A DNA stretch of 55,617 bases from a virus. The stretch spans positions 1 to 55,617 of IMG/VR virus record IMGVR_UViG_3300042731_007656; one strand, 5' to 3'. Below the pieces are notes generated by a model that searched no databases, was not told the DNA's origin, and saw only the letters and a program-made list of their open reading frames with translations. Positions 14,048-25,373 of this stretch are shown here, piece after piece; the stretch's first letter is position 1; each line of letters opens with the position of its first letter. The translations under genes and the position numbers were made by a program.

Positions 14048-14479
14048 ATGGATATTAAAAAACTAAGCGAGTGGTACACTGTAAGTGAGCAGTTGAAAGA
14101 GTTGAAAAAGAAAGAACGTGCACTGCGTAAAGAAATATTTAATGACGTCTTCCCGTCACCGGACGAAGGTATTAACACACTAAATATTGATGACAATTAC
14201 GTACCCGAAGGTAGTTACAAATCAAACATTGGGTACTGCTACGCATTGAAAGGTGTGTACAAATACACACGCAGCGTTGTGGAGAAAAACATACCTGACG
14301 TCAAGAAGCACTTCCCACCGGAAAGACTGAATGCATTGATAAAATACAGGCCATCGTTAGTACTGTCGGAATACAATAAGCTGAATAAAAAACAAAAACT
14401 TGTATTCGACCATTGCCTCGTGGTCAAACCCGCCACACCATCACTTAAAATCGAAGAAGTAAAGAGAGGTAAGCAATAA
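14048..14479 (+). CDS. Conserved-looking phage protein upstream of a Sak4-like ATPase
   Basis: 143 residues: an N-terminal basic helix (EQLKELKKKERALRKEIF), an FPSPDEGINTLNI segment and a C-terminal FDHCLVVKPATPSLKI. Proteins of this shape are often found next to phage recombination ATPases, but I cannot assign a function. AAGGAGG precedes the ATG. Its stop overlaps the next start (TAATG). Confidence 0.6.
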   Translation: MDIKKLSEWYTVSEQLKELKKKERALRKEIFNDVFPSPDEGINTLNIDDNYVPEGSYKSNIGYCYALKGVYKYTRSVVEKNIPDVKKHFPPERLNALIKYRPSLVLSEYNKLNKKQKLVFDHCLVVKPATPSLKIEEVKRGKQ

Positions 14480-15168
14480 TGGTAAACTTTACGACAACCG
14501 GCCGTGCAGCCAAGGACCAAGGTGTTAAGGTACTTGTCTATGGCAAGTCTGGGATGGGCAAAACTTATTTGTCATCTACTGCAAGCGACAATTTCATCAT
14601 ATCCTGTGAGAGCGGACTCCTCTCTCTGAGAGATTTCGATATACCGGCTGCCGAAATAACAAGCTTCGCCGAACTCAATGAGGCCTATCGATGGGTAGCT
14701 GAGTCAAACGATGCTAAACAATTTAATACGTTTACCCTTGACTCGGTAACAGAAATAGGTGAAATTGCACTGTCATACCTAAAAAGTATACATCGTGATC
14801 CACGCCAAGCATATGGTGAGCTCGTTGATAAAGTACTTAGCGTCGTAAAAAAGTTTCGCGACCTAAAAGGTAAGAACGTATATTTTACTGCAAAAGAAGC
14901 ACGATTTAAAGACGAGTCAACAGGCAGCCTCCTTTACGGCCCAGAAATGCCTGGTCAGCGTCTCGGACCCGGCCTACCTTATTATTTTGACGAAGTATTC
15001 CGCATTGAGACTGCCACAACAGATAACGGCACGAAATACCGCCTGTTGCGGACACAACCCGACGAACAGTACGATGCAAAAGATCGATCTGGCGCGCTCG
15101 ATGAAATCGAACGTCCACACCTCGACCATGTGTTCAACAAAATTAAAGCCGGTGTAAAAAGTAGTTGA
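14479..15168 (+). CDS. Sak4-like RecA-fold ATPase, ssDNA recombinase
   Basis: 229 residues with a P-loop GKSGMGKT at residues 22-29, a Walker B-like FTLDS near residue 90, and the AAA_24/Sak4 pattern (FIISCESGLLSL, LYGPEMPGQR). Sak4 proteins are minimal RecA-like single-strand annealing or recombination ATPases, usually paired with an ssDNA-binding protein, as the following DUF669 gene appears to be here. Translationally coupled to the preceding gene. Confidence 0.8.
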   Translation: MVNFTTTGRAAKDQGVKVLVYGKSGMGKTYLSSTASDNFIISCESGLLSLRDFDIPAAEITSFAELNEAYRWVAESNDAKQFNTFTLDSVTEIGEIALSYLKSIHRDPRQAYGELVDKVLSVVKKFRDLKGKNVYFTAKEARFKDESTGSLLYGPEMPGQRLGPGLPYYFDEVFRIETATTDNGTKYRLLRTQPDEQYDAKDRSGALDEIERPHLDHVFNKIKAGVKSS

Positions 15169-15193
15169 CATGATGTTATAATAGTAATATATA
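15165..15193 (+). promoter_or_regulatory. Sigma70-type promoter for the DUF669 gene
   Basis: TTGACA (15165-15170), 17 bases, TATATA (15188-15193). The -35 overlaps the end of the Sak4-like gene. The DUF669 ATG follows at 15237. Confidence 0.65.
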
Positions 15194-15236
15194 CAAAACA
15201 TAAATTGCCTGTAAATCAACAAAAGGAGAATTAAAA

Positions 15237-16109
15237 ATGCCAGCATTAAACTTTAACGCCAATGATCATCAGCCGCTTGGATCGATTGAAGCGGTACCGT
15301 CAGGATGGTACCCAGTCAAGATCACAAAGTCAGAATTCAAGGAAAACAGCCAAAAAACAGGCCGTTACCTTGAACTAACCGCAACCATCACCGACGGTGA
15401 TTACAAAGGTGGTATGCTGATTACGCGCCTCAATCTCGAGAACCCAAACAGCACAGCTGTGGAAATTGCACAGCGTACACTGTCAAGTATTTGTCACGCC
15501 ATCCATGTACACAAGATCACCAAAACCGAACAGTTACACAACCACACACACATGTGGAAAGCTGTGTACATTGAACCCGTTACCGATGAAGACGGCAAAG
15601 TAATATACGGTGCAAAAAATGATATTAAGGCCTATAGGGAGTCAACTGAGCTACCTGGCCGTACCGTTGAAGACGATGACGCACCAGCATGGGTTACCGA
15701 AGATATGCCTGCACCTGCACCCGAAGAACCGAAGCCTGCACCTGCACCTGCGCCAAAGGCAAAAGCGAAAGTTAATCCGAAGGCAGTTCCTGTTCCGTCC
15801 ACAAACGATGGCGTCCCACCGCCTGACGCACCTCCAGCTGACAATGTCCCATCACAAACAGATGTTCCGGCACTGTCCGAAGAAAAAGGTATCGATACTG
15901 ACTTTGACAGCTACATGACGGCTAAGGCCGGAGGCGCCTCGTACCTTGCCTTTGCGAAAAAAGGGTGGACTATCGAGTCACTTGTAAAAGCAGGATACAT
16001 GCGAGACCCCGGCATTGGTAATAAAACGGTTATCCCTGACGTACCACCCCCGTCTGAGCCAACTGATGCCACCAGCACATCTTCTGCTAAGCCACCCTGG
16101 GTACCCTAA
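15237..16109 (+). CDS. DUF669 single-stranded DNA-binding-like protein
   Basis: 290 residues. The first 140 match DUF669: PSGWYPVKITKSEFKEN, the KTGRYLELTATITDGDYKG strand pair and LNLENPNSTAVEIAQRTLSS. This OB-like family is thought to bind ssDNA and accompany phage recombinases. A proline/alanine/lysine linker (residues 155-200) connects to a C-terminal region with an acidic stretch near residue 220. AAAAGGAG precedes the ATG. It has its own promoter, consistent with need in bulk. Confidence 0.8.
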   Translation: MPALNFNANDHQPLGSIEAVPSGWYPVKITKSEFKENSQKTGRYLELTATITDGDYKGGMLITRLNLENPNSTAVEIAQRTLSSICHAIHVHKITKTEQLHNHTHMWKAVYIEPVTDEDGKVIYGAKNDIKAYRESTELPGRTVEDDDAPAWVTEDMPAPAPEEPKPAPAPAPKAKAKVNPKAVPVPSTNDGVPPPDAPPADNVPSQTDVPALSEEKGIDTDFDSYMTAKAGGASYLAFAKKGWTIESLVKAGYMRDPGIGNKTVIPDVPPPSEPTDATSTSSAKPPWVP

Positions 16110-16137
16110 TTAACGGCCACATAGGCCTGATTTCATA

Positions 16138-16160
16138 AGGGCTGCCTCAAAAGCAGCCCT
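16138..16160 (+). terminator. Hairpin after the DUF669 gene
   Basis: AGGGCTGC and GCAGCCCT (8-bp perfect stem, 7-base loop) followed by AATTAAA, with no clear T-run. It may be a weak terminator or an mRNA-stabilising 3' hairpin. Confidence 0.4.
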
Positions 16161-16183
16161 AATTAAAGCAAAGGACTAATAAC

Positions 16184-16381
16184 ATGAACTATAAAAAGAT
16201 AATCGAAACATCGCAAAAAATTATGTCGCTGAATAACACACAAAACTTACTTTACCGCCTGTTAGGTGCGTATAGAAGCGATATCGGTATACACGGGGCT
16301 GATCTTTTATACAACGAAATTGACAAAATTAATAAAGAAATAAAATCACTTGAAGGCACACTTAGAAAGTTGTGTGAATAG
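16184..16381 (+). CDS. Small helical hypothetical protein (65 aa)
   Basis: Starts MNYKKIIETSQKIMSLNN and ends IDKINKEIKSLEGTLRKLCE, a coiled-coil-prone helix. AAAGGA lies before the ATG. Function unknown. Confidence 0.6.
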   Translation: MNYKKIIETSQKIMSLNNTQNLLYRLLGAYRSDIGIHGADLLYNEIDKINKEIKSLEGTLRKLCE

Positions 16382-16393
16382 GAAATAATAACC

Positions 16394-16711
16394 ATGAAAA
16401 TAGACGAATACAGAGAAGAACTATTAAAAATAGATAAGATAACCAAGTCCAAGAAAGCTGTACTTTTAGCTAAATTTGTTGAAGCAAATAGTACTTTTAG
16501 GATTGGTGATATAGCAACTGATCATATTGGATCTATAAGGATAGAAGAAATAAATATCGAGCTGCCTTACTACGGTAAACACGCACCTACATTTATCTAC
16601 CTCGGTGTACGGCTAACAAAAAAAGGTACACCTTTTAAAAACGGCGAACAAAGAATAATACATCAATGTAATCTTGTTGCAGGAAAAAAATGCCAAAGAA
16701 ACGAAAAGTAA
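16394..16711 (+). CDS. Hypothetical protein (105 aa)
   Basis: Starts MKIDEYREELLKIDKITKSK. Helical N-terminus and beta-rich C-terminus (FRIGDIATDHIGSIRIEEI, then FIYLGVRLTKKG). Its last 22 bases overlap the next gene. Possibly a small RNA- or DNA-binding domain; not assigned. Confidence 0.6.
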   Translation: MKIDEYREELLKIDKITKSKKAVLLAKFVEANSTFRIGDIATDHIGSIRIEEINIELPYYGKHAPTFIYLGVRLTKKGTPFKNGEQRIIHQCNLVAGKKCQRNEK

Positions 16712-17091
16712 AATGTCCATACTGTGGAAAGGATGCAAGTTTAGTTCATGCAAGCGTTATGTACAGAAACAAAAGTCAACGTTGGTTATGGTACTGTGGT
16801 TGCGTACCAGGTGGCGCAATTGTCGGCTGCCACGATGTCTCAACAGTACCATTAGGAACACTTGCAAACCAAGAATTAAGGCAGCTGCGCATACTCGTAC
16901 ACCGGCATCTCGATACACTGTGGCAATCAAACAAATTAACGCGCAATGACACGTATAGAATACTTGCAAAAAAACTAAAACTTAAACACAAAAACTGCCA
17001 CATAGCAATGTTTAACATAGACCAGTGTAACAATGCGATCCATGTAATATCGGAACTGAAGAAAACGTATGGTATTAATCAAATAATTTAG
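16690..17091 (+). CDS. DUF3268-type zinc-finger protein
   Basis: 133 residues. A CPYCGKDASLV zinc knuckle at residues 9-19, then RWLWYCGCVPGGAIVGCHD, LRQLRILVHRHLDTLW and a TYRILAKKLKL segment, all as in the DUF3268 family common next to phage replication genes. The role is unknown, probably nucleic-acid binding. CAGGA precedes the ATG inside the previous gene. Confidence 0.75.
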   Translation: MPKKRKVKCPYCGKDASLVHASVMYRNKSQRWLWYCGCVPGGAIVGCHDVSTVPLGTLANQELRQLRILVHRHLDTLWQSNKLTRNDTYRILAKKLKLKHKNCHIAMFNIDQCNNAIHVISELKKTYGINQII

Positions 17092-17135
17092 GTGTAAAAC
17101 AGTGGTTTAAGATAACTAAACAAGGAGACATAATA

Positions 17136-17513
17136 ATGGAATGCTCGTGTGTGAGTGACGATGTAACGGATGTAGGCGCAGTTTTGACCGATAAAATCGT
17201 AAAAGCGAGAAAAGATCATAAATGTGTAGAATGCAGAAAAACGATAAACAAAGGAGAGATGTACAGATATGAAGTAATTAAGAACGATGATTTGAATGTG
17301 TTTAAAACGTGCGCAGATTGTAACAGTGTACGGGAACACCTTGTGTGCTTTTTTTATTATGGTGAAATATGGTGGTTAATCGAAGAAAACATAAGCGAAT
17401 ATGGGGATCAGCAACCATGGTCGAAAATTGGTAGGCTAACACCAGTTGCACGCGAGCGCGTGTGTAAAATTATCGAAGACAGTTGGAGAGATGACGAAAA
17501 GGTAATTAAATGA
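17136..17513 (+). CDS. Zinc-finger phage protein (125 aa)
   Basis: Two zinc knuckles, CVECRKTINKGEMY (residues 30-43) and CADCNSV (near residue 62), as in a common phage protein family in which ARKDHKCVECRK is typical, then an acidic tail. AAGGAG precedes the ATG. The stop overlaps the nuclease start (ATGA). Confidence 0.7.
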   Translation: MECSCVSDDVTDVGAVLTDKIVKARKDHKCVECRKTINKGEMYRYEVIKNDDLNVFKTCADCNSVREHLVCFFYYGEIWWLIEENISEYGDQQPWSKIGRLTPVARERVCKIIEDSWRDDEKVIK

Positions 17514-18490
17514 CACAGTTAGCCGAAAAAACATTAAAAGCTATCGACGAGAAAATAGTAGATGACCACACCGAAAAATTTAGGCGTCATCTTGGCGCCT
17601 CTATTATCGGTAGGCCCTGCATACGTTCTCTGTGGTATTCCTTCAGGTGGGCAAAACCCGCGGAGTTTAGCGCGCGAATACTTAGGTTGTTTCAACGCGG
17701 GCACCTTGAAGAGGATCGTTTCATTGATTACTTAACGCGCATTGGATGTAAAGTTTGGTCACATGATGCCGATGGAAATCAATTCCGTTTTTCGTTCTGC
17801 GGTGGCCATGCCGGAGGATCCCTTGACTCGGTAGCCACTGGTGTACCAGATGTGCCAAAAGATAGGCCGTGTCTTTGCGAGTACAAAACACATAACGACA
17901 AAAGTTTTAAGATGCTACAAAAGAAAGGAGTAAAAAACTGTAAGTTTGAGCATTATGTACAAATGCAGTTATACATGTCCGGTTTTAATCTGCCATACGC
18001 ACTCTATATGGCGGTCAATAAAAATGATGACGATTTGTACCTCGAAATTGTTACTCGCAACGATACTGTGGCCAACGTCTACAAAAAACGTGCCGAAAAT
18101 ATTGTGTATGCCGAAACACCTCCTGCGAGACTAAATGAGTCACCAGGATGGTGGCAGTGCTCTTGGTGCGATTACAAACAGATCTGCCATACTGACGCCA
18201 TAGCCACAGTTAACTGCCGCACATGCGCGAATTCGACGCCTGTTGCCGATGGTGACTGGTCGTGTGAGCGACATTACACAGCAACTGTTGATCACGCAAA
18301 TTATAAGAAATCCAACGAAATACACTGCACCGGTTGTGGTGATCACATATACTTGCCGGGTATGATCGGAGGTGCCACATTAGTTGATATGGCCGACAAC
18401 AGATCTTGGATAAAATACAAACTGCGTAACGGCAATGAAATCGTCAACGGAAGGGATCACATAAAAAGCATAGATTTATTAGGTGATTAG
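17510..18490 (+). CDS. PD-(D/E)XK nuclease, Cas4/RecB-like
   Basis: 326 residues. Catalytic pattern: E67/E68 after a helix, D106 in GGSLDSV, E124 and K126 in CEYKTH, then the downstream helix HYVQMQLYMSGF. A cysteine cluster (CSWCDYKQIC near residues 220-230) resembles the Fe-S site of Cas4-type nucleases, and another zinc-like cluster (CRTC, C...H, CTGCGDH) follows. Likely an exonuclease processing DNA ends for recombination with the Sak4 and DUF669 proteins. Followed without a gap by the helicase. Confidence 0.85.
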   Translation: MTQLAEKTLKAIDEKIVDDHTEKFRRHLGASIIGRPCIRSLWYSFRWAKPAEFSARILRLFQRGHLEEDRFIDYLTRIGCKVWSHDADGNQFRFSFCGGHAGGSLDSVATGVPDVPKDRPCLCEYKTHNDKSFKMLQKKGVKNCKFEHYVQMQLYMSGFNLPYALYMAVNKNDDDLYLEIVTRNDTVANVYKKRAENIVYAETPPARLNESPGWWQCSWCDYKQICHTDAIATVNCRTCANSTPVADGDWSCERHYTATVDHANYKKSNEIHCTGCGDHIYLPGMIGGATLVDMADNRSWIKYKLRNGNEIVNGRDHIKSIDLLGD

Positions 18491-20122
18491 ATGTTTACAC
18501 CGAGACCGTATCAAGAATATGCAATACAGTCGATATTTGACTATTTCAACGGAGGTGGTACAGGTAATCCTGTAATTGTTGCCCCGACTGGCACGGGCAA
18601 GGCGCTTATTTTAGCGGAGTTTATTAAACGTACACTTATGTCTTGGCCCGATCAACGGATAATGATGTTAACTCATGTTAAGGAGTTAATTGCCCAAAAC
18701 ATGCAGACTCTACTGCGTCAATGGCCCGCTGCGCCGGCAGGTACATACAGTGCTGGCCTAAAGCGCAAAGAACATAATCAGCAAATCACATTCGCAGGCA
18801 TTGCATCCGTGGCTAAAAAACCTGAACTGTTTGGCTGCCAAGACATTATAACCATAGATGAGTGCCATCTTGTATCCGAAAAAGCAGATGCAATGTACAG
18901 CGCTTTCTTAAATGCGCTAAAAGAGGTTAATCCGCACATTAAAGTTGTCGGCCTGACAGCGACACCTTACCGCCTTAAAAATGGCCACCTGACAGAAGGT
19001 ACTATATTTACAGATGTTTGTTGTGACATGACAACCCCGGAGGCATACTGCTATTTCGTGGAAAACGGATACATGGCTGCCCTGATTACTAAACGAACAA
19101 ACATGGAAATCGACACGTCAAATGTACCGATACGCGGTGGCGATTTTGCGAAAAAGCAGCTCCAAGAAGCCGTAAACAAAACCGAGCTGACGCGTGCAGC
19201 CGTAGAAGAAATGATTGAGCTTGGTAAAAATCGCCATAGCTGGATTGTTTTCGCCACAGGAATTGACCACGCAGAGAACATCGCACGTATGCTTAACAGG
19301 CGCGGTATAAAATCTACTGCTATACATAGTAAATTGAAACCTGCGGAACGCGATGAGAGGATAAACGATTTTAAGAGTGGTGTATATCGCGCTGTTGTGA
19401 ACATGGGTATTATGACCACAGGTTTTGACCATCCACCAATTGACATGGTAGGCTTCCTCCGCCCGACGCAATCGACAAGCCTGTGGCTACAAGCTCTCGG
19501 CAGAGCTACACGTCCTTTCGATGGTGACGGTATTTTCCCGGCAAAGGAAAACGCGCTCGTGCTCGACTTTGCAGGAAATACCAGGCGCCTTGGTCCAATA
19601 GATGATCCAGTAATACCTAAACGAGCACGAAAAGGAAAAGGTGGTACAGCGCCCGTAAAGACATGTGAAAAGTGCATGTTTTACAATCACGCTACCGCCA
19701 AATTTTGCTGCCAGTGTGGCCACGAGTTTAAAATGGTTAACAAATTATATACTACATCAGATACCACAGCCGTTATGCGGCTGAAGAAGAAGACGAAGAA
19801 AGAAAAAAAAAAAGAACCTATTATTGAAATATTCAGCGTAGATCACGCGGTATTTGTGAGACACGCGAAAATTGGCAAGCCTGTATCACTTAAGGTGACT
19901 TACCACTGTGGGTTAAGACAGTTTAGCGAGTGGATTTGTCTTGAGCACGATGGATGGCCGCTCAGAAGAGCAAGGTCTTGGTGGGGGAAAATGTCCGCGA
20001 CCCCTGTACCGATGAGTGTCGACGAGGCATTAAAACTAACAAACGACATAGATGTTCCAAAGGCTATCAAAGTTGATGTTAGCAAGAAATATCCGTCAAT
20101 CCTTGAATATCTTCGGGACTAA
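18491..20122 (+). CDS. Superfamily II DEAD/DEAH-type DNA helicase
   Basis: 543 residues. Q-motif-like RPYQ, Walker A APTGTGKA (residues 31-38), motif II DECH, motif III LTATPYR, and C-terminal motifs TGFDHPPIDMV and QALGRATRP. Near residue 400 there is a zinc ribbon (CEKC...CCQCG), and the C-terminus is a separate beta-rich domain (LKVTYHCGLRQFSEWI). Likely a repair or recombination helicase of the type III/UvsW-like group. It starts right after the nuclease stop. Confidence 0.9.
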   Translation: MFTPRPYQEYAIQSIFDYFNGGGTGNPVIVAPTGTGKALILAEFIKRTLMSWPDQRIMMLTHVKELIAQNMQTLLRQWPAAPAGTYSAGLKRKEHNQQITFAGIASVAKKPELFGCQDIITIDECHLVSEKADAMYSAFLNALKEVNPHIKVVGLTATPYRLKNGHLTEGTIFTDVCCDMTTPEAYCYFVENGYMAALITKRTNMEIDTSNVPIRGGDFAKKQLQEAVNKTELTRAAVEEMIELGKNRHSWIVFATGIDHAENIARMLNRRGIKSTAIHSKLKPAERDERINDFKSGVYRAVVNMGIMTTGFDHPPIDMVGFLRPTQSTSLWLQALGRATRPFDGDGIFPAKENALVLDFAGNTRRLGPIDDPVIPKRARKGKGGTAPVKTCEKCMFYNHATAKFCCQCGHEFKMVNKLYTTSDTTAVMRLKKKTKKEKKKEPIIEIFSVDHAVFVRHAKIGKPVSLKVTYHCGLRQFSEWICLEHDGWPLRRARSWWGKMSATPVPMSVDEALKLTNDIDVPKAIKVDVSKKYPSILEYLRD

Positions 20123-20130
20123 TTTTTCAC

Positions 20131-20159
20131 TTGACAATACATTAAACGTAAATTATATT
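20131..20159 (+). promoter_or_regulatory. Sigma70-type promoter
   Basis: TTGACA (20131-20136), 17 bases, TATATT (20154-20159), followed by AACACTAA (20166-20173), the element also found after several leftward promoters. Drives the pentapeptide gene and those after it. Confidence 0.75.
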
Positions 20160-20190
20160 GGGTTAAACACTAACATTAAAGGAGTAAAAA

Positions 20191-20667
20191 ATGAAACAAG
20201 TAATCAAAGACCACTTAACTGGAAAAGTCTTGTACGAATCCAAACACAAAACCGTTAGAGAATGTATTGAAGAAGCTGTTAAAAAAGGTATCGCCCTTAG
20301 GAATGCCGATTTTAGGAATACCGATCTTAGAGGTGCCGATTTTAGCAGTGCCGATTTTAGCGGTGCCTATTTTAGGGGTGCCAATCTTGAACGTGCCGAT
20401 ATTAGTTGTGCCGATCTTAGAGGTGCCGATCTTAGAGGTGCCTATTTTAGCGGTGCCGATTTTAGCGGTGCCAATATAGATTTTTCATGTTGGCCCCTAT
20501 GGTGTGGCAGCAAAAACGTTAAATTGGACACATGTCAAAAAAAGCAATTGTTAGCACATGCTTTTAATGTTGCACTTGATGAGTTTCCCGGTGTGCTTAC
20601 GCAAGAACAAAAAGACTGGCTAAATGGTTTCCACAGAATTGAATCTGGCGAATTTCCTAAGTTTTAA
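20191..20667 (+). CDS. Pentapeptide-repeat protein
   Basis: 158 residues. About 12 consecutive A(D/N)(L/F)xx repeats from residue 33 to 90 (for example LRGADFSSADFSGAYF) form a right-handed square beta-helix. The DNA shows matching 15-bp tandem units. The C-terminal half (QKKQLLAHAFNVALDEFPGV, then WLNGFHRI) is typical of small phage pentapeptide proteins. Some family members mimic DNA and bind gyrase, but nothing here proves this. AAAGGAG precedes the ATG. Confidence 0.85.
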   Translation: MKQVIKDHLTGKVLYESKHKTVRECIEEAVKKGIALRNADFRNTDLRGADFSSADFSGAYFRGANLERADISCADLRGADLRGAYFSGADFSGANIDFSCWPLWCGSKNVKLDTCQKKQLLAHAFNVALDEFPGVLTQEQKDWLNGFHRIESGEFPKF

Positions 20668-20706
20668 TATAGTGCACCATGTAAGAATTATTTAAAGGAG
20701 TAAAAA

Positions 20707-21141
20707 ATGAAACAACTTATTTTAGCAGTATTATTTACTTTGTCAACAAGTAACGTGTACGCGGACAGATCTTTCGTGGAAAAATACAATGCATTGCTTA
20801 TTGACTTCTGTGCAGGTAGCGGCATCCCAACGTATGCAGAAGTACTACCAGTACACGGTAAAAGGAATGTCTACGCTAACACCAAAAGCACTGTCAGCAC
20901 TGTGTATATTGGTAATAAAACATGTCTTGTGCTGGACGTAAGTGACACAGATACTGTGGTGTTTGCGCTTTATGCGTACTTTGGTGTCTTAGGCTCCGCA
21001 GACACCTTACAGGAAGCTGCGCAGAGGTATATGGTAGATTTACAGTTTGCAATGAATAACCTCGCAAAAGGAGCGGATGAACAGTCTATAGGTAGTGTTA
21101 CGCTAAAAAGAATGCAAGATATGCTTATCGTTTGTGAGTAG
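20707..21141 (+). CDS. Secreted/periplasmic protein with signal peptide
   Basis: 144 residues. Typical Sec signal (MKQLILAVLFTLSTSNVYA, cleavage after YA), then a mature domain with three cysteines. It ends DMLIVCE. No family recognised. An exported protein within replication genes is unusual and suggests host-envelope modification or superinfection exclusion. AAAGGAG precedes the ATG. Confidence 0.65.
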   Translation: MKQLILAVLFTLSTSNVYADRSFVEKYNALLIDFCAGSGIPTYAEVLPVHGKRNVYANTKSTVSTVYIGNKTCLVLDVSDTDTVVFALYAYFGVLGSADTLQEAAQRYMVDLQFAMNNLAKGADEQSIGSVTLKRMQDMLIVCE

Positions 21142-21142
21142 T

Positions 21143-21463
21143 ATGGAAAAAAGGATGCAAAGAAACGGAGTGGTCTTGCCACACGAAGGTACCGACGAAT
21201 ACCGCGTGTGGCAAGAATGTGAGGAACAGTCAGAGGCAGCTGGTGCCCCTGTACATGTTGATGACATAATCTTTGTGTTTGCCGGTAAAATCCGCATCGC
21301 ATTTACCCGGAAAGTATACGCTGACTGGTTGAAATTTAATAATTACTCTGATAGCATTATCCTTGCACCTATACCGCTGCCACCCGCCCCAACACCGAAA
21401 GGTCGAGAGGAAACATTGGTACCACTGCCCCCTGATGCGGATAAACACAAACAACTATATTAA
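21143..21463 (+). CDS. Hypothetical protein (106 aa)
   Basis: ATG at 21143 (MEKRMQRNGVVLPHEGTDEY), one base after the previous stop; an in-frame GTG nine bases earlier is the alternative. Proline-rich C-terminus (APIPLPPAPTPKGREE). No recognised family. Confidence 0.6.
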   Translation: MEKRMQRNGVVLPHEGTDEYRVWQECEEQSEAAGAPVHVDDIIFVFAGKIRIAFTRKVYADWLKFNNYSDSIILAPIPLPPAPTPKGREETLVPLPPDADKHKQLY

Positions 21464-21474
21464 GGTAGGTCAGT

Positions 21475-22416
21475 ATGACTATAAAAGATGCTTTAAAATT
21501 TGTTAAAAGTGCCGTCGGCAAGTCCGATGATCCCACACAGGCGCATTACAGCATATCTAACGGTGTGATCAAAAGTTATAATGGTATAATCACAATGTGC
21601 TCACCGATACCTATTGATATAGAGGCAACCCCTGTGGCTATAGCATTCAATAGCGCAATCGCAATGTGCGATGAAACGACAACCATAAGTAGTGTGAGAG
21701 GTAAGTTAAAAATAAAATCAGGCCCGTTTAAAGCTAATATTGAGTGTCTTCCTGGCGAAGTACCTTACATGCTTCCGGAAGGTGTTAACCGCGAAATTAC
21801 CTGCTCAATACTACCCACAATAAAAAAACTGATTCATATTGTTCCTAAAAACTCACCGCAACCGTGGAACAGGGGCATGTTATTTGACGGGAATTCTGTG
21901 TTTGTCACAAATAACGTTGTGATCGTACAACACTGGCATCCGGAACCATTCCCACACAGAGTAAATGTGCCGGAAGAAGCATTGCGTGCGTTGATTAGGA
22001 TAAACACCGAACCGATATCCGTACAAATAGCGCCAAAATCAATAACGTTTCATTTTGACGACAATAAATGGCTTAAAACTAAGCTACTTGCAGACGATTG
22101 GCCACAGAGTGTGGAAACAATCCTAAATGCTGATTCTGAGCAGACACCCATACCGCCTACTTTTTTTGATGCAATAGAAGGCATGTCATGTTTCACCGAC
22201 GAAACAAAATGCGTTGAGTTGCGCAACGGAAAGGTTAACGTACGTGACAAAGAAATATCGTATGATGTAGAAGGTTTATGCGGACGTGGTTTCTATGCCA
22301 CCGATAAGCTTTTGATGCTAAAAGATGTGGCTAAAACTGTCGATTTAACATCGCATACTAAGCCGTCTATATTTTTCGGCGACGCTTTGCGCGGTGCAAT
22401 CATAGGTATGATATAA
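21475..22416 (+). CDS. DNA polymerase III beta-like sliding clamp
   Basis: 313 residues with three repeated beta-alpha-beta segments as in bacterial beta clamps: an N-terminal KDALKFVKSAVGK helix, YSISNGVIKSYNGIITMCSP, middle VPEEALRALIRI, and the end LLMLKDVAKTVDLTSH then GALRG. Shorter than the bacterial protein (about 366). It would tether the polymerase whose gene overlaps its stop (TAATG), a strong functional link. Assignment rests on fold pattern and position. Confidence 0.7.
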   Translation: MTIKDALKFVKSAVGKSDDPTQAHYSISNGVIKSYNGIITMCSPIPIDIEATPVAIAFNSAIAMCDETTTISSVRGKLKIKSGPFKANIECLPGEVPYMLPEGVNREITCSILPTIKKLIHIVPKNSPQPWNRGMLFDGNSVFVTNNVVIVQHWHPEPFPHRVNVPEEALRALIRINTEPISVQIAPKSITFHFDDNKWLKTKLLADDWPQSVETILNADSEQTPIPPTFFDAIEGMSCFTDETKCVELRNGKVNVRDKEISYDVEGLCGRGFYATDKLLMLKDVAKTVDLTSHTKPSIFFGDALRGAIIGMI

Positions 22417-25373
22417 TGTCACTCAAAACAGGTTTATTCTGGGATGAAGAGCCAGGGTGCAGAATAAAGCACAGGATCGCCTCAATAATGCCGGACATAC
22501 CAGATACCGGCTGGAAGATGCCAACTGAATTCCCGGCACTTGATCGTGCTAAAGTGCTTGCAATCGACCTGGAGACGTATGACCCAGAACTAATCGAGAA
22601 AGGTCCAGGGTGGGCGCGAAACCGTGGCCACATAGTCGGTGTGTCGGTAGCGGCAGACGGGTATAAAGCATATTACCCAATGCGTCACGAAGTCGAAAAA
22701 GAAATCAATCTTCCCCCAGATAAAGTGCTCGCCTGGTTAAACGATGTATTGAGTAATGAGCATGCGCCTAAAATAGGTGCAAACATCATGTACGATATCG
22801 GATGGCTCCGACAAGAAGGTGTCGATGTAAAGGGTAGTTTGATCGATGTGCAGTTTGCAGAAGCATTGCTTGCTGAAGAAGGTAAAACGGGACTTGAACA
22901 TCTTGGCCAAAAATACCTTGGTATGGGTAAAGAGAGCCCAGTATTGTACGACTGGTGCGCTAAATATTACGGCGGCAGCCCAAATGATAAACAACGTAAA
23001 AATATATACCGTGCTCCTGCGCGCCTGGTAGGACCGTACGCCGAGAGTGACGCAACATTGCCATTGCAGCTTGCAAGACCACTATACGAAGCACTTAAAA
23101 ATAATGATCTGCTTGATTTATTTGATGTTGAGTGCCGGCTTATACCACTGTTAATTGACATGCGCTTTGCTGGCATGCCTGTTGATATAAATGGTGCAGA
23201 AAAAGCACGTGTACAACTGACACAAATGGCGGATAATGCTGCTAAACAAATAAGGGACATGGTTGGTTTTGAGGTAAACGTTAATGCATCAGCAAGTATG
23301 GCAAAAGCATTCGACAAGGTAGGCCTCAAATACCCGCGCACTGAGCCAAGCGCATCTTATCCAGAGGGACAACCGAGCTTTACAAAAATTGTGCTGTCTG
23401 GCATCAATCATCCATTTGCGCAATTAATAAGTGATCGTCGTAAGTACCTTAAAATGATCAGCTCTTTTATAGATGGTGCGATACTTGATGCACATGTTGG
23501 CGGTAAAATTTATCCACAATTTCATCCGTTGCGTGGAGATCGCGGCGGTACGCGTAGTGGTCGGTTTGCATGTAGCAATCCAAATGGACAGCAAATACCA
23601 TCTCGCGATAAATTTCTTGCGCCACTGATCCGTGGTCTATTTATACCGCAAGAAGGACATGAGTGGTTCAGCGCCGATTATTCGCAGATAGAATATAGGA
23701 TGCTACTGCATTTTGCAGTTGGCCAAGGCGCCGATGAAATTAGGGCACGGTTTAATGCTGATCCGTCACTTGACTTCCATGATTTTACACAGGCACTTAT
23801 CGAGGAAAAGACAGGGATAAAACTTGATCGGAAACCTGTGAAAAATATTAGCTTCGGTCTATGTATAGCAGAAGGTCAGCTTGTTACGACAAATCGTGGA
23901 AATATTCCGATAGAAAACGTAAGTAAAGATGACCTACTATGGGACGGCGTAGAATGGGTATCGCACGACGGTGTCGTGTGTAACGGTATAAAAGATGTAA
24001 TTACATACCATGGATTAACAACTACTAAAGATCACGAGGTTTATTATGGAATTAATAGATCGTGCACAATGGATAAAGCCAGGAAATCGCGCAAAAGGCT
24101 TGTCACACTATGCCAAACAATTGGAAAAGATGGATTTAGGAGAGGTTACACCGGTAGAGGTATCACGTGTGGAAGATGCACGAAGGTGTGGAACCACAAG
24201 AATAAAAATAATAGTTCGTTGCAACAACTGCGGAAAGACCTACGAACGCTACTGGGACAACATAAAAAAAGGACATGGCTGTGTCTGTTTGAGGAACAGA
24301 AAATATTTCGCAGACGCAGATTTAGTGGAATCACTCGGAAATCGATACGATGCAATAGTCCAGAGATGCGAAAGAGATACGCATACGAGCAGTCACAATT
24401 ACAAGGGACGAGGTGTAAAAAATCTTTTCTCATCGAGAGAACACTTTATTATGTGGGCACTGAAGAAATACCCAAACGGCGAATACATGGGGATGGAATT
24501 CGACCGTATAGACAACGATGGTCATTACTCACCAGAAAATTTAAGAATAGTCACAAGTGCAGAAAACAAATTAAATACGCGTCGTACTGTATATACAGAA
24601 AAGCGTTTAGAATCCTTTCAAGAAAAATACCCTCAAATAAAGTATGCTCGTGCAACACTGCGAAATTTACTTCAGAAGAGATTAACCGATATAGAAATAA
24701 TAGAAAGATACAATTCGTCGAAAGTAATGCGCCGAAAAAAGCAAAAGTCTACGACATAATAAACGCGGGCCCGCGCCATAGGTTTTTCTGCCAAGGTGTA
24801 CTTGTGTCTAACTGCTACGGAATGTCAAAACAAACATTAACAAAAAACCTTGGCTTAACTAAACAAAAAGCAAATGCACTGTTTGAAGCATATCACACAG
24901 CGCTACCATTTGTGGCCGCAACAATGGATTATTACAAAAACATGGCCGAAACTAAAGGCGAGGTAAGGACAATCCTTGGCCGCAGATCAATGTTCAACTT
25001 TTGGGTACCATGCAAGTATGATGCTAACGCAATAGCTTTACCGCACAGCGCAGCTCTGCGGAAATACGGATCAAACATAAAACGGGCGTATAGCCACAAA
25101 GGTGTCAACCGTGTACTGCAAGGATCCAGTGCGGATCAAATGAAGATGGCGATGCTTAAGATGCATGAAAGCGGCGTTTTCAATGTCCTGGGACCACCGC
25201 TTTCCACAATCCATGACGAAATAAATATAAGCAGGCCGCCAGGTAAAGAAGCTGATGAAGCGATAAAGGAAGTCGTTCGAATTATGGAGACTGCGATTGA
25301 TATAAAGGTACCAGTAAAAGTAGATTCAGAACAAGGTGCAACATGGGGATCGATAGAAGCGATTGAAACTTAA
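22416..25373 (+). CDS. Family A DNA polymerase with 3'-5' exonuclease, interrupted by an intein
   Basis: 985 residues, about 668 after intein removal. Exonuclease motif I is DLE at residues 51-53 (LAIDLETYD). Polymerase motif A is SADYSQIEYR, motif B is split as KNISFGL | CYGMSK by the intein (residues 483-799), and motif C is HDEI near the C-terminus. This is the replicative enzyme. Because the intein separates motif B, activity requires splicing. The start overlaps the clamp stop. No other DNA polymerase is present. The same DNA also encodes an endonuclease in the +1 frame. Confidence 0.92.
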   Translation: MSLKTGLFWDEEPGCRIKHRIASIMPDIPDTGWKMPTEFPALDRAKVLAIDLETYDPELIEKGPGWARNRGHIVGVSVAADGYKAYYPMRHEVEKEINLPPDKVLAWLNDVLSNEHAPKIGANIMYDIGWLRQEGVDVKGSLIDVQFAEALLAEEGKTGLEHLGQKYLGMGKESPVLYDWCAKYYGGSPNDKQRKNIYRAPARLVGPYAESDATLPLQLARPLYEALKNNDLLDLFDVECRLIPLLIDMRFAGMPVDINGAEKARVQLTQMADNAAKQIRDMVGFEVNVNASASMAKAFDKVGLKYPRTEPSASYPEGQPSFTKIVLSGINHPFAQLISDRRKYLKMISSFIDGAILDAHVGGKIYPQFHPLRGDRGGTRSGRFACSNPNGQQIPSRDKFLAPLIRGLFIPQEGHEWFSADYSQIEYRMLLHFAVGQGADEIRARFNADPSLDFHDFTQALIEEKTGIKLDRKPVKNISFGLCIAEGQLVTTNRGNIPIENVSKDDLLWDGVEWVSHDGVVCNGIKDVITYHGLTTTKDHEVYYGINRSCTMDKARKSRKRLVTLCQTIGKDGFRRGYTGRGITCGRCTKVWNHKNKNNSSLQQLRKDLRTLLGQHKKRTWLCLFEEQKIFRRRRFSGITRKSIRCNSPEMRKRYAYEQSQLQGTRCKKSFLIERTLYYVGTEEIPKRRIHGDGIRPYRQRWSLLTRKFKNSHKCRKQIKYASYCIYRKAFRILSRKIPSNKVCSCNTAKFTSEEINRYRNNRKIQFVESNAPKKAKVYDIINAGPRHRFFCQGVLVSNCYGMSKQTLTKNLGLTKQKANALFEAYHTALPFVAATMDYYKNMAETKGEVRTILGRRSMFNFWVPCKYDANAIALPHSAALRKYGSNIKRAYSHKGVNRVLQGSSADQMKMAMLKMHESGVFNVLGPPLSTIHDEINISRPPGKEADEAIKEVVRIMETAIDIKVPVKVDSEQGATWGSIEAIET
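23862..24812 (+). mobile_element. Intein in DNA polymerase motif B
   Basis: 317 residues from Cys (TGT, 23862) to Asn, with Cys as the +1 extein residue (TGC, 24813). Block A is CIAEGQLVTTNRGNIPIENV, block B ends TTTKDHEVYY, and blocks F/G are VYDIINAGPRHRFF...GVLVSN followed by C. The penultimate residue is Ser instead of the usual His, as in some phage inteins. Between blocks B and F the intein frame is open but encodes a very basic sequence with no domain; the DNA there carries an endonuclease in another frame. Excision would rejoin FGL to CYGMS. Confidence 0.93.
24046..24759 (+). CDS. HNH-type homing endonuclease nested out of frame inside the intein
   Basis: 237 residues in the +1 frame relative to the polymerase. 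A zinc knuckle CNNCGKTYERYW...CVC (residues about 59-82) precedes the family signature YDAIVQRCERD, YKGRGVK, FIMWALKKYP, then MEFDRIDNDGHYSPENLRIV and AENKLNTRR, typical of phage HNH/His-Me homing endonucleases. The first His of HNH is replaced, as in many members. A Shine-Dalgarno (GAGGT) is six bases before the ATG. The start lies at the end of intein block B and the stop inside block F, so it fills the normal endonuclease slot but as a separate protein. Confidence 0.85.
   Translation: MELIDRAQWIKPGNRAKGLSHYAKQLEKMDLGEVTPVEVSRVEDARRCGTTRIKIIVRCNNCGKTYERYWDNIKKGHGCVCLRNRKYFADADLVESLGNRYDAIVQRCERDTHTSSHNYKGRGVKNLFSSREHFIMWALKKYPNGEYMGMEFDRIDNDGHYSPENLRIVTSAENKLNTRRTVYTEKRLESFQEKYPQIKYARATLRNLLQKRLTDIEIIERYNSSKVMRRKKQKSTT

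Follow-up and report, generated by a model that had tools for sequence, protein, structure and literature searches.

The window analysed here is one metagenomic virus contig of 55,617 bases (IMG/VR record IMGVR_UViG_3300042731_007656), in which a DNA polymerase A (PolA) gene (22416..25373, on the plus strand, as are all features given below) is split by an intein, and the intein in turn holds, in another frame, a complete gene for a predicted HNH-type homing endonuclease (HEN). The polymerase is encoded by a continuous open reading frame (ORF) of 985 amino acids (aa), identified by its matches to Pfam DNA_pol_A (E=2e-52) and DNA_pol_A_exo1, and to the phrog_17 DNA polymerase (E=5e-104). Six uninterrupted polymerases, 42-54% identical to that of the window, all align across the insertion site without an insert, and hence provide examples of the empty site, with FGL|(I/L)YG at the position where the window has FGL|C. 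The insertion point is the polymerase O-helix motif (FGL|CYG).

The intein (23862..24812, 317 aa) has C1 at 23862, a TxxH motif in block B, and N317 ending at 24812, followed by Cys+1 (24813-24815), meaning that the residues by which class 1 inteins are recognized (C1, block B TxxH, terminal Asn, and Cys+1) are all found in this insert. In the alignments, which covered 29 inteins, C1, T55, H58, and N317 are invariant, and Cys+1 is present. The N-terminal splicing half (IntN, blocks A-B, 61 residues, 23862..24044) shares 31-52% identity with the IntN of five inteins from annotated phages, with a profile match in all related loci, while the C-terminal half (IntC, blocks F-G, KAKVYDIINAGPRHRFFCQGVLVSN, 24738..24812) has a block F with identity of up to 92% to other phage inteins, and overlaps the last codons and the stop of HEN. 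The linker between them (24045..24737), which overlaps HEN, is open, basic (26% K/R), and predicted to be disordered; with 61 K/R vs. 14 D/E among its 231 residues, it agrees with what a first reading made from the letters alone (the sequence-only reading) had described as a basic linker devoid of a domain, and the intein-frame reading of the HEN stretch did in fact match no nuclease family, the only related match being a marginal one to the IntN half and its flank. AlphaFold modeling of the intein returned predicted local distance difference test (pLDDT) values of 94-98 at residues 1-80 and 95-97 at residues 290-317, vs. about 34-68, mostly <60, over residues 90-285 of the linker. When the model was searched with Foldseek, the top matches were Ssp DnaB, gp41-1, Npu DnaE, and other inteins, with a probability of 1.00 and E values of only about 1e-3 to 1e-2. 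These models confidently predict a HINT splicing fold for the window intein, around a disordered linker. TIGR01445 intein_Nterm was detected in 6 of the 29 relatives; a Pfam search of the window intein itself gave no match. PDB sequence searching gave weak or spurious matches only.

HEN occupies 24046..24759 (237 aa, ATG to TAA) in the +1 frame between blocks B and F, exactly where the sequence-only reading had placed a complete HNH-type gene, and the product sizes foreseen there (668 aa for the spliced polymerase, 317 aa for the intein, and 237 aa for HEN) also agree with ours. A Shine-Dalgarno-like GAGG (24036..24039) lies 6 nucleotides (nt) 5' of the ATG. The HEN protein matches phrog_374 HNH endonuclease (E=1.3e-21) and phrog_3377 (E=5e-18), and carries putative zinc-binding cysteines at C59, C62, C79, and C81 (24220..24288), the first three of which are invariant and the last nearly so in 24-25 aligned HENs, as well as an HNH core (DRID..GHY..ENLR..N177; 24502..24576) in which R154, Y161, N165, and N177 are invariant and D153 is nearly invariant. 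Its AlphaFold model has a pLDDT of 80.8 with a confident core and, when searched with Foldseek against BFVD, matched phage HNH homing endonucleases, themselves predicted structures, at E=9e-10 and a probability of 1.00.

That two frames should be open over the whole of HEN is very unlikely to be due to chance, as had been argued from the letters alone. There are no stops in the intein frame within the HEN region, and 25 in the third frame. When the HEN protein was kept fixed, and its synonymous codons were shuffled or resampled in four ways (20,000 each, 80,000 in total), between 14.2 and 21.9 intein-frame stops were expected; no resample had fewer than three, and zero was never reached. In the reverse test, where the intein-frame peptide was fixed, 7-8 HEN-frame stops were expected, and the probability of none was 0 and 5e-5 under two models. 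These results also bear on whether the insert could instead be a self-splicing group I or group II RNA intron with an HNH ORF, the open host frame being accidental. HNH genes are indeed frequent in phage group I introns, polymerase introns included, but no Rfam intron family matched between 22300 and 25500, even at a permissive threshold, the splicing blocks are intact with a confident splicing fold, and such an intron would leave stop avoidance unexplained. We therefore regard an RNA intron as extremely improbable here.

The window is not a singular case. Viral contigs were scanned with IntN and HEN alignments, and prokaryotic genomes with IntN; frame-blind profile searches followed, and the results, with phage records included, were pooled and de-duplicated. 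Among the distinct HNH genes found within IntN-anchored related inteins (n=128), 99 are in the +1 frame, 29 are in the +2 frame, and none is in frame with its intein, so that the +1 arrangement, for which a search among related inteins had been proposed, does recur. Stops throughout the intein frame of such relatives, which had been named as the observation that would speak against the idea, are not what we found, given that 124 of the 128 loci are stop-free, with 961 stops expected. Because the searches made no requirement for an open frame 3' of IntN, the lack of stops in these 124 inteins cannot be a selection effect of the search. The third frame, used as an internal control, behaved neutrally (1541 stops vs. 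1490 expected). In annotated phages, the HNH ORF is +1 to the intein in Streptococcus phage Javan255 and Caulobacter phage GB2A, and +2 in Salmonella phage vB-SeS-01, Vibrio phage 97.13, and EBPR siphovirus 2. The loci include prophages or contigs from genomes that belong, by record title, to Bacillota, Actinomycetota, Synergistota, Spirochaetota, and Pseudomonadota. An element of the Jerseyvirus type is covered over at least 80% of its length by 163 phage records, and in the ten isolate phages whose frame was examined (Jerseyvirus, Dhillonvirus, and Kagunavirus) the intein frame has no stops, and the HEN start codon and stop position are identical. Based on junction sequences, the host sites include the PolA O-helix and a PolA C-terminal motif.

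The pattern of substitution separates the two frames further. Summed over related pairs, substitutions at HEN codon positions 1/2/3 numbered 50/43/146 for the +1 loci and 496/245/904 for the +2 loci, counts that are not independent due to pairs sharing sequences, and in the ten isolate phages the variable columns were distributed as 45/20/92. The concentration of substitutions at position 3 reflects conservation of the HEN protein, whose amino-acid identity was in fact higher than that of the intein frame in every pair (e.g. 0.84 vs. 0.66). Sequence comparison shows purifying selection on HEN, and the constraint on the intein frame that overlaps it appears to be mainly that it remain open; a conserved HEN together with an intein frame that is held open would imply that both frames are translated. 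The proposal that a splicing protein and a separate endonuclease are made from the same DNA thus gains support from the 124 open-frame inteins and from HEN conservation.

The same data address the possibility that the element is a decayed ordinary intein, in which two compensating indels displaced a formerly in-frame endonuclease, leaving a non-functional relic, or that it is an assembly error. Indels typically do give rise to out-of-frame domains, and this exact element is known from the window contig only. A relic, however, should not show zero stops in the displaced frame, nor should its 128 relatives, without exception, occupy one of two conserved out-of-frame registers that cluster on the HEN tree (3 changes between +1 and +2, vs. 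about 21 with shuffled labels). HEN is moreover under purifying selection, and the isolate genomes agree. A relic or error in the window is, for these reasons, extremely improbable, and a sequencing or assembly artefact as the general cause could be excluded, since the same arrangement is shared by numerous contigs, prophages, and isolate genomes that are unrelated to one another.

As to how HEN would be started, the sequence-only reading was borne out in part. The Shine-Dalgarno and ATG it had reported at the end of block B are present and plausible; the duplex energy of the GAGG is -7.1 kcal/mol vs. a mean of -4.1 for synonymous resamples, though, and with p about 0.2 the signal is weak evidence taken alone, making the ATG a presumptive start. 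An internal Shine-Dalgarno was rejected as independent proof of initiation, as synonymous resampling traced most of the signal to the conserved peptide KEVITYDG. In about 20 relatives, AAGGAGGT-ATG is found at intein nt 145. Alternatively, ribosomes in the polymerase frame could reach HEN by programmed frameshifting, which would generate an N-extein-IntN-HEN fusion and no free protein. The fact that the HEN frame is open far upstream into IntN in many relatives, and that some loci are without a strong internal start, would fit this scenario. Yet a phased -1 slippery heptamer was found in none of 24 +2 loci, in only 6 of 54 +1 loci, and not in the window, where the HEN frame opens just 27 nt ahead of the GAGG-ATG, and the existence of two registers would demand two distinct shift mechanisms. 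Frameshifting is hence an unlikely explanation. Given that slippery sites are missing, that both registers occur, and that gene callers independently place an internal start (yielding a 247-aa product in LPSE1 and an "HNH endonuclease" in SS3e), internal initiation would be the likeliest route to HEN.

Both phages deserve a comment. In Salmonella phage LPSE1 (KY379853.1, 450-1193 of the locus), the 247-aa product is a hypothetical protein at the PolA locus, structurally HEN-like, and most of the polymerase ORF was left unannotated. In Salmonella phage SS3e (NC_006940.2, 160-3260 of the locus), the annotation of the PolA region reads polymerase, HNH endonuclease, and polymerase; compared with relatives, this region has 2 extra nt and a disturbed frame, due either to sequencing indels or to a real split variant.

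Taken as a whole, the evidence makes it highly probable, in our opinion, that the insert is a mobile homing intein in a phage PolA whose splicing and nuclease functions reside in separate frames of the same DNA. Translation of the polymerase frame would yield the 985-aa precursor, whose IntN and IntC would fold as a splicing domain around the disordered linker, excise in cis, and leave the 668-aa polymerase. From an internal start within or just past block B, the +1 frame would be translated into a free-standing HNH-type homing endonuclease, with its stop inside block F. HEN would then cut intein-less polA alleles, and repair would copy the entire intein, nested gene included. Selection conserves the HEN protein, and keeps stops out of the intein frame that overlaps it. 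Empty sites and patchy presence lend indirect support to cleavage of the intein-less allele and to homing.

Several observations weigh against this picture. The canonical first His of the HNH motif is an Arg in the HEN subfamily (DRID at that motif), even though N165 and N177 are invariant, the Pfam search with the window HEN gave no HNH match, and the Foldseek search of HEN against PDB matched no HNH structure; given these three findings, HEN is a putative nuclease by virtue of its family annotation. Since the nearest relative of the window HEN shares only 50% identity with it, selection on that particular copy has to be read from the stop test. Nor are the internal Shine-Dalgarno and start codons any stronger than the intein peptide would tend to generate by itself, and at several loci a convincing HEN start is missing. 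Lastly, the penultimate residue of the window intein is a Ser instead of the usual His. This unusual Ser could also mean that HEN is real, but that the intein frame is open only to allow translation of a polymerase in which the insert is retained or split, cis splicing having been lost. IntN and IntC are found in separate ORFs in some relatives, and continuity in cis is thus dispensable there. The retention and invariance of C1, TxxH, block F, the terminal Asn, and Cys+1 across relatives, on the other hand, are hard to reconcile with lost splicing, and an insert retained in the O-helix motif should abolish polymerase activity. Loss of cis splicing is, in our judgment, very improbable, and we continue to favor an intein that would splice while encoding a separate endonuclease.

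The relatives also suggest how such elements change over time. Two mini-inteins, L040 (4001-4366) and L041 (425-790), occupy the site of the nested intein L034 and are without the HEN segment only. They share 92-95% identity with L034 over the 300 nt that precede the insert, and 81-89% across the splicing blocks. The nested gene is hence a module that can be removed, and has been lost here. In L049, L052, L064, L081/L083, and L151 the linker frame is broken: IntN ends early, IntC lies in another ORF, and the HNH gene sits between them. In the broken-frame loci with a detected HNH gene, intein-frame stops occur at the neutral rate. From their sequences, these loci look like split inteins with a homing endonuclease gene (HEG) between the halves, the layout known from fractured genes. 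Four changes are required to place the broken-frame state on the HEN tree. When free-standing phage HNH genes were added, nested and free genes interleaved (8 changes for three labels, with weak deep support), a result consistent with repeated capture of free-standing phage HNH genes. At a further locus, L079 (4001-5300), IntN is cut short and the ORF carrying IntC begins some 1.2 kb further downstream; an HNH gene of the HEN family was not detected between the two. The window thus belongs to a family with two registers, several host genes, and both mini-intein and split derivatives. As to the broader proposal, that frame-separated homing inteins form a distinct and widespread class whose overlapping endonuclease gene, in +1 or +2, is translated independently, that they inhabit several host genes in phages of many bacterial phyla, that their nested genes stem from more than one capture of a free-standing phage HNH gene, and that they have repeatedly yielded split inteins and mini-inteins, we consider the odds to be about even.

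In textbook homing inteins, the endonuclease domain is inserted in the splicing protein, and both fold as one chain. Bifunctional inteins such as PI-SceI, and the HNH inteins, carry this domain in frame between blocks B and F. The slot used in the window is the same, but there the endonuclease is a domain of one polypeptide, whereas here it would be the product of a separate gene, and none of the 128 relatives has it in frame. Dassa et al. reportedly described in 2009 fractured genes in which split inteins are parted by a free-standing endonuclease gene of a Vsr-like family. A free-standing HEG between IntN and IntC is what we see as separate ORFs in L049, L052, L064, L081, and L151; the window differs in that its intein frame is continuous (a single 985-aa ORF), its splicing would occur in cis, and its HEN is of the HNH type. 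An "intein-containing DNA polymerase precursor" is annotated in the Jerseyvirus Salmonella phage vB_SenS-Ent3, with the intein marked as a mature peptide inside PolA. The Jerseyvirus element is homologous to that of the window, although distant in sequence, and its HNH ORF is in +2 in the phages examined; the intein is marked in Ent3 only, and the nested gene is unmarked there.

The nearest published case among the literature searched would be the ShiLan domain (PMC11855218), where an out-of-frame HNH gene with an internal start lies in a stop-free host frame and behaves as a homing element. HEN is likewise read in another frame than its host gene, whose own frame stays open. The authors of that work, however, found no intein splicing blocks, no intron, and no Shine-Dalgarno, and the insert is thought to be retained, whereas the intein around HEN has all its blocks intact and a confidently predicted splicing fold, and the family is far larger. 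The same article cites Gosselin, Arsenault, and Gogarten (bioRxiv 10.1101/2025.01.02.630785) for overlapping frames being frequent in actinobacteriophages, and it is possible that this preprint on actinobacteriophage inteins of "non-canonical architecture" already describes the same layout. Our literature search, which did not extend to the text of that preprint, returned no intein with an out-of-frame HEN, nor a general rule with statistics.

If splicing and cleavage are indeed entrusted to separate proteins that share their DNA, the folding constraint on a fused chain would be removed, and endonuclease and splicing levels could be set separately. More than 100 natural, long, same-strand overlaps in which one frame is conserved and one is held open should be useful for the study of overlapping genes. 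An origin of split inteins is also suggested, in which the linker frame breaks and the nested gene stays, and which, if true, would represent a natural route, and the deletion of a nested gene makes the origin of mini-inteins visible. On the practical side, one of the two genes escapes annotation pipelines in Jerseyvirus and phages like it, and the existence of isolate phages opens the idea to testing in ordinary laboratory systems. All in all, this looks like a real and widespread type of selfish element rather than a curiosity.

A few other loci are worth recording. Helicase-like genes might be further hosts, based on motif resemblance only, in L088, L091, L097, and L103 and in L095, L099, and L100, with junctions GKTD|CLVLD and DVV|CIDYAD. 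A search of plasmids gave no match. In L028, L029, and L031, a single polymerase gene is host to a pair of inteins, both of which contain an HNH gene of their own in another frame. In L122 (3380-3826), an HNH gene without an IntN match lies wholly inside a 269-aa ORF of another frame, and is perhaps a ShiLan-like insertion without an intein. In the window itself, the region 5' of polA (14479-22416) holds a replication cluster that encodes a Sak4-like annealing protein, a single-stranded DNA-binding protein, a Cas4-like exonuclease, a helicase, and a processivity factor.

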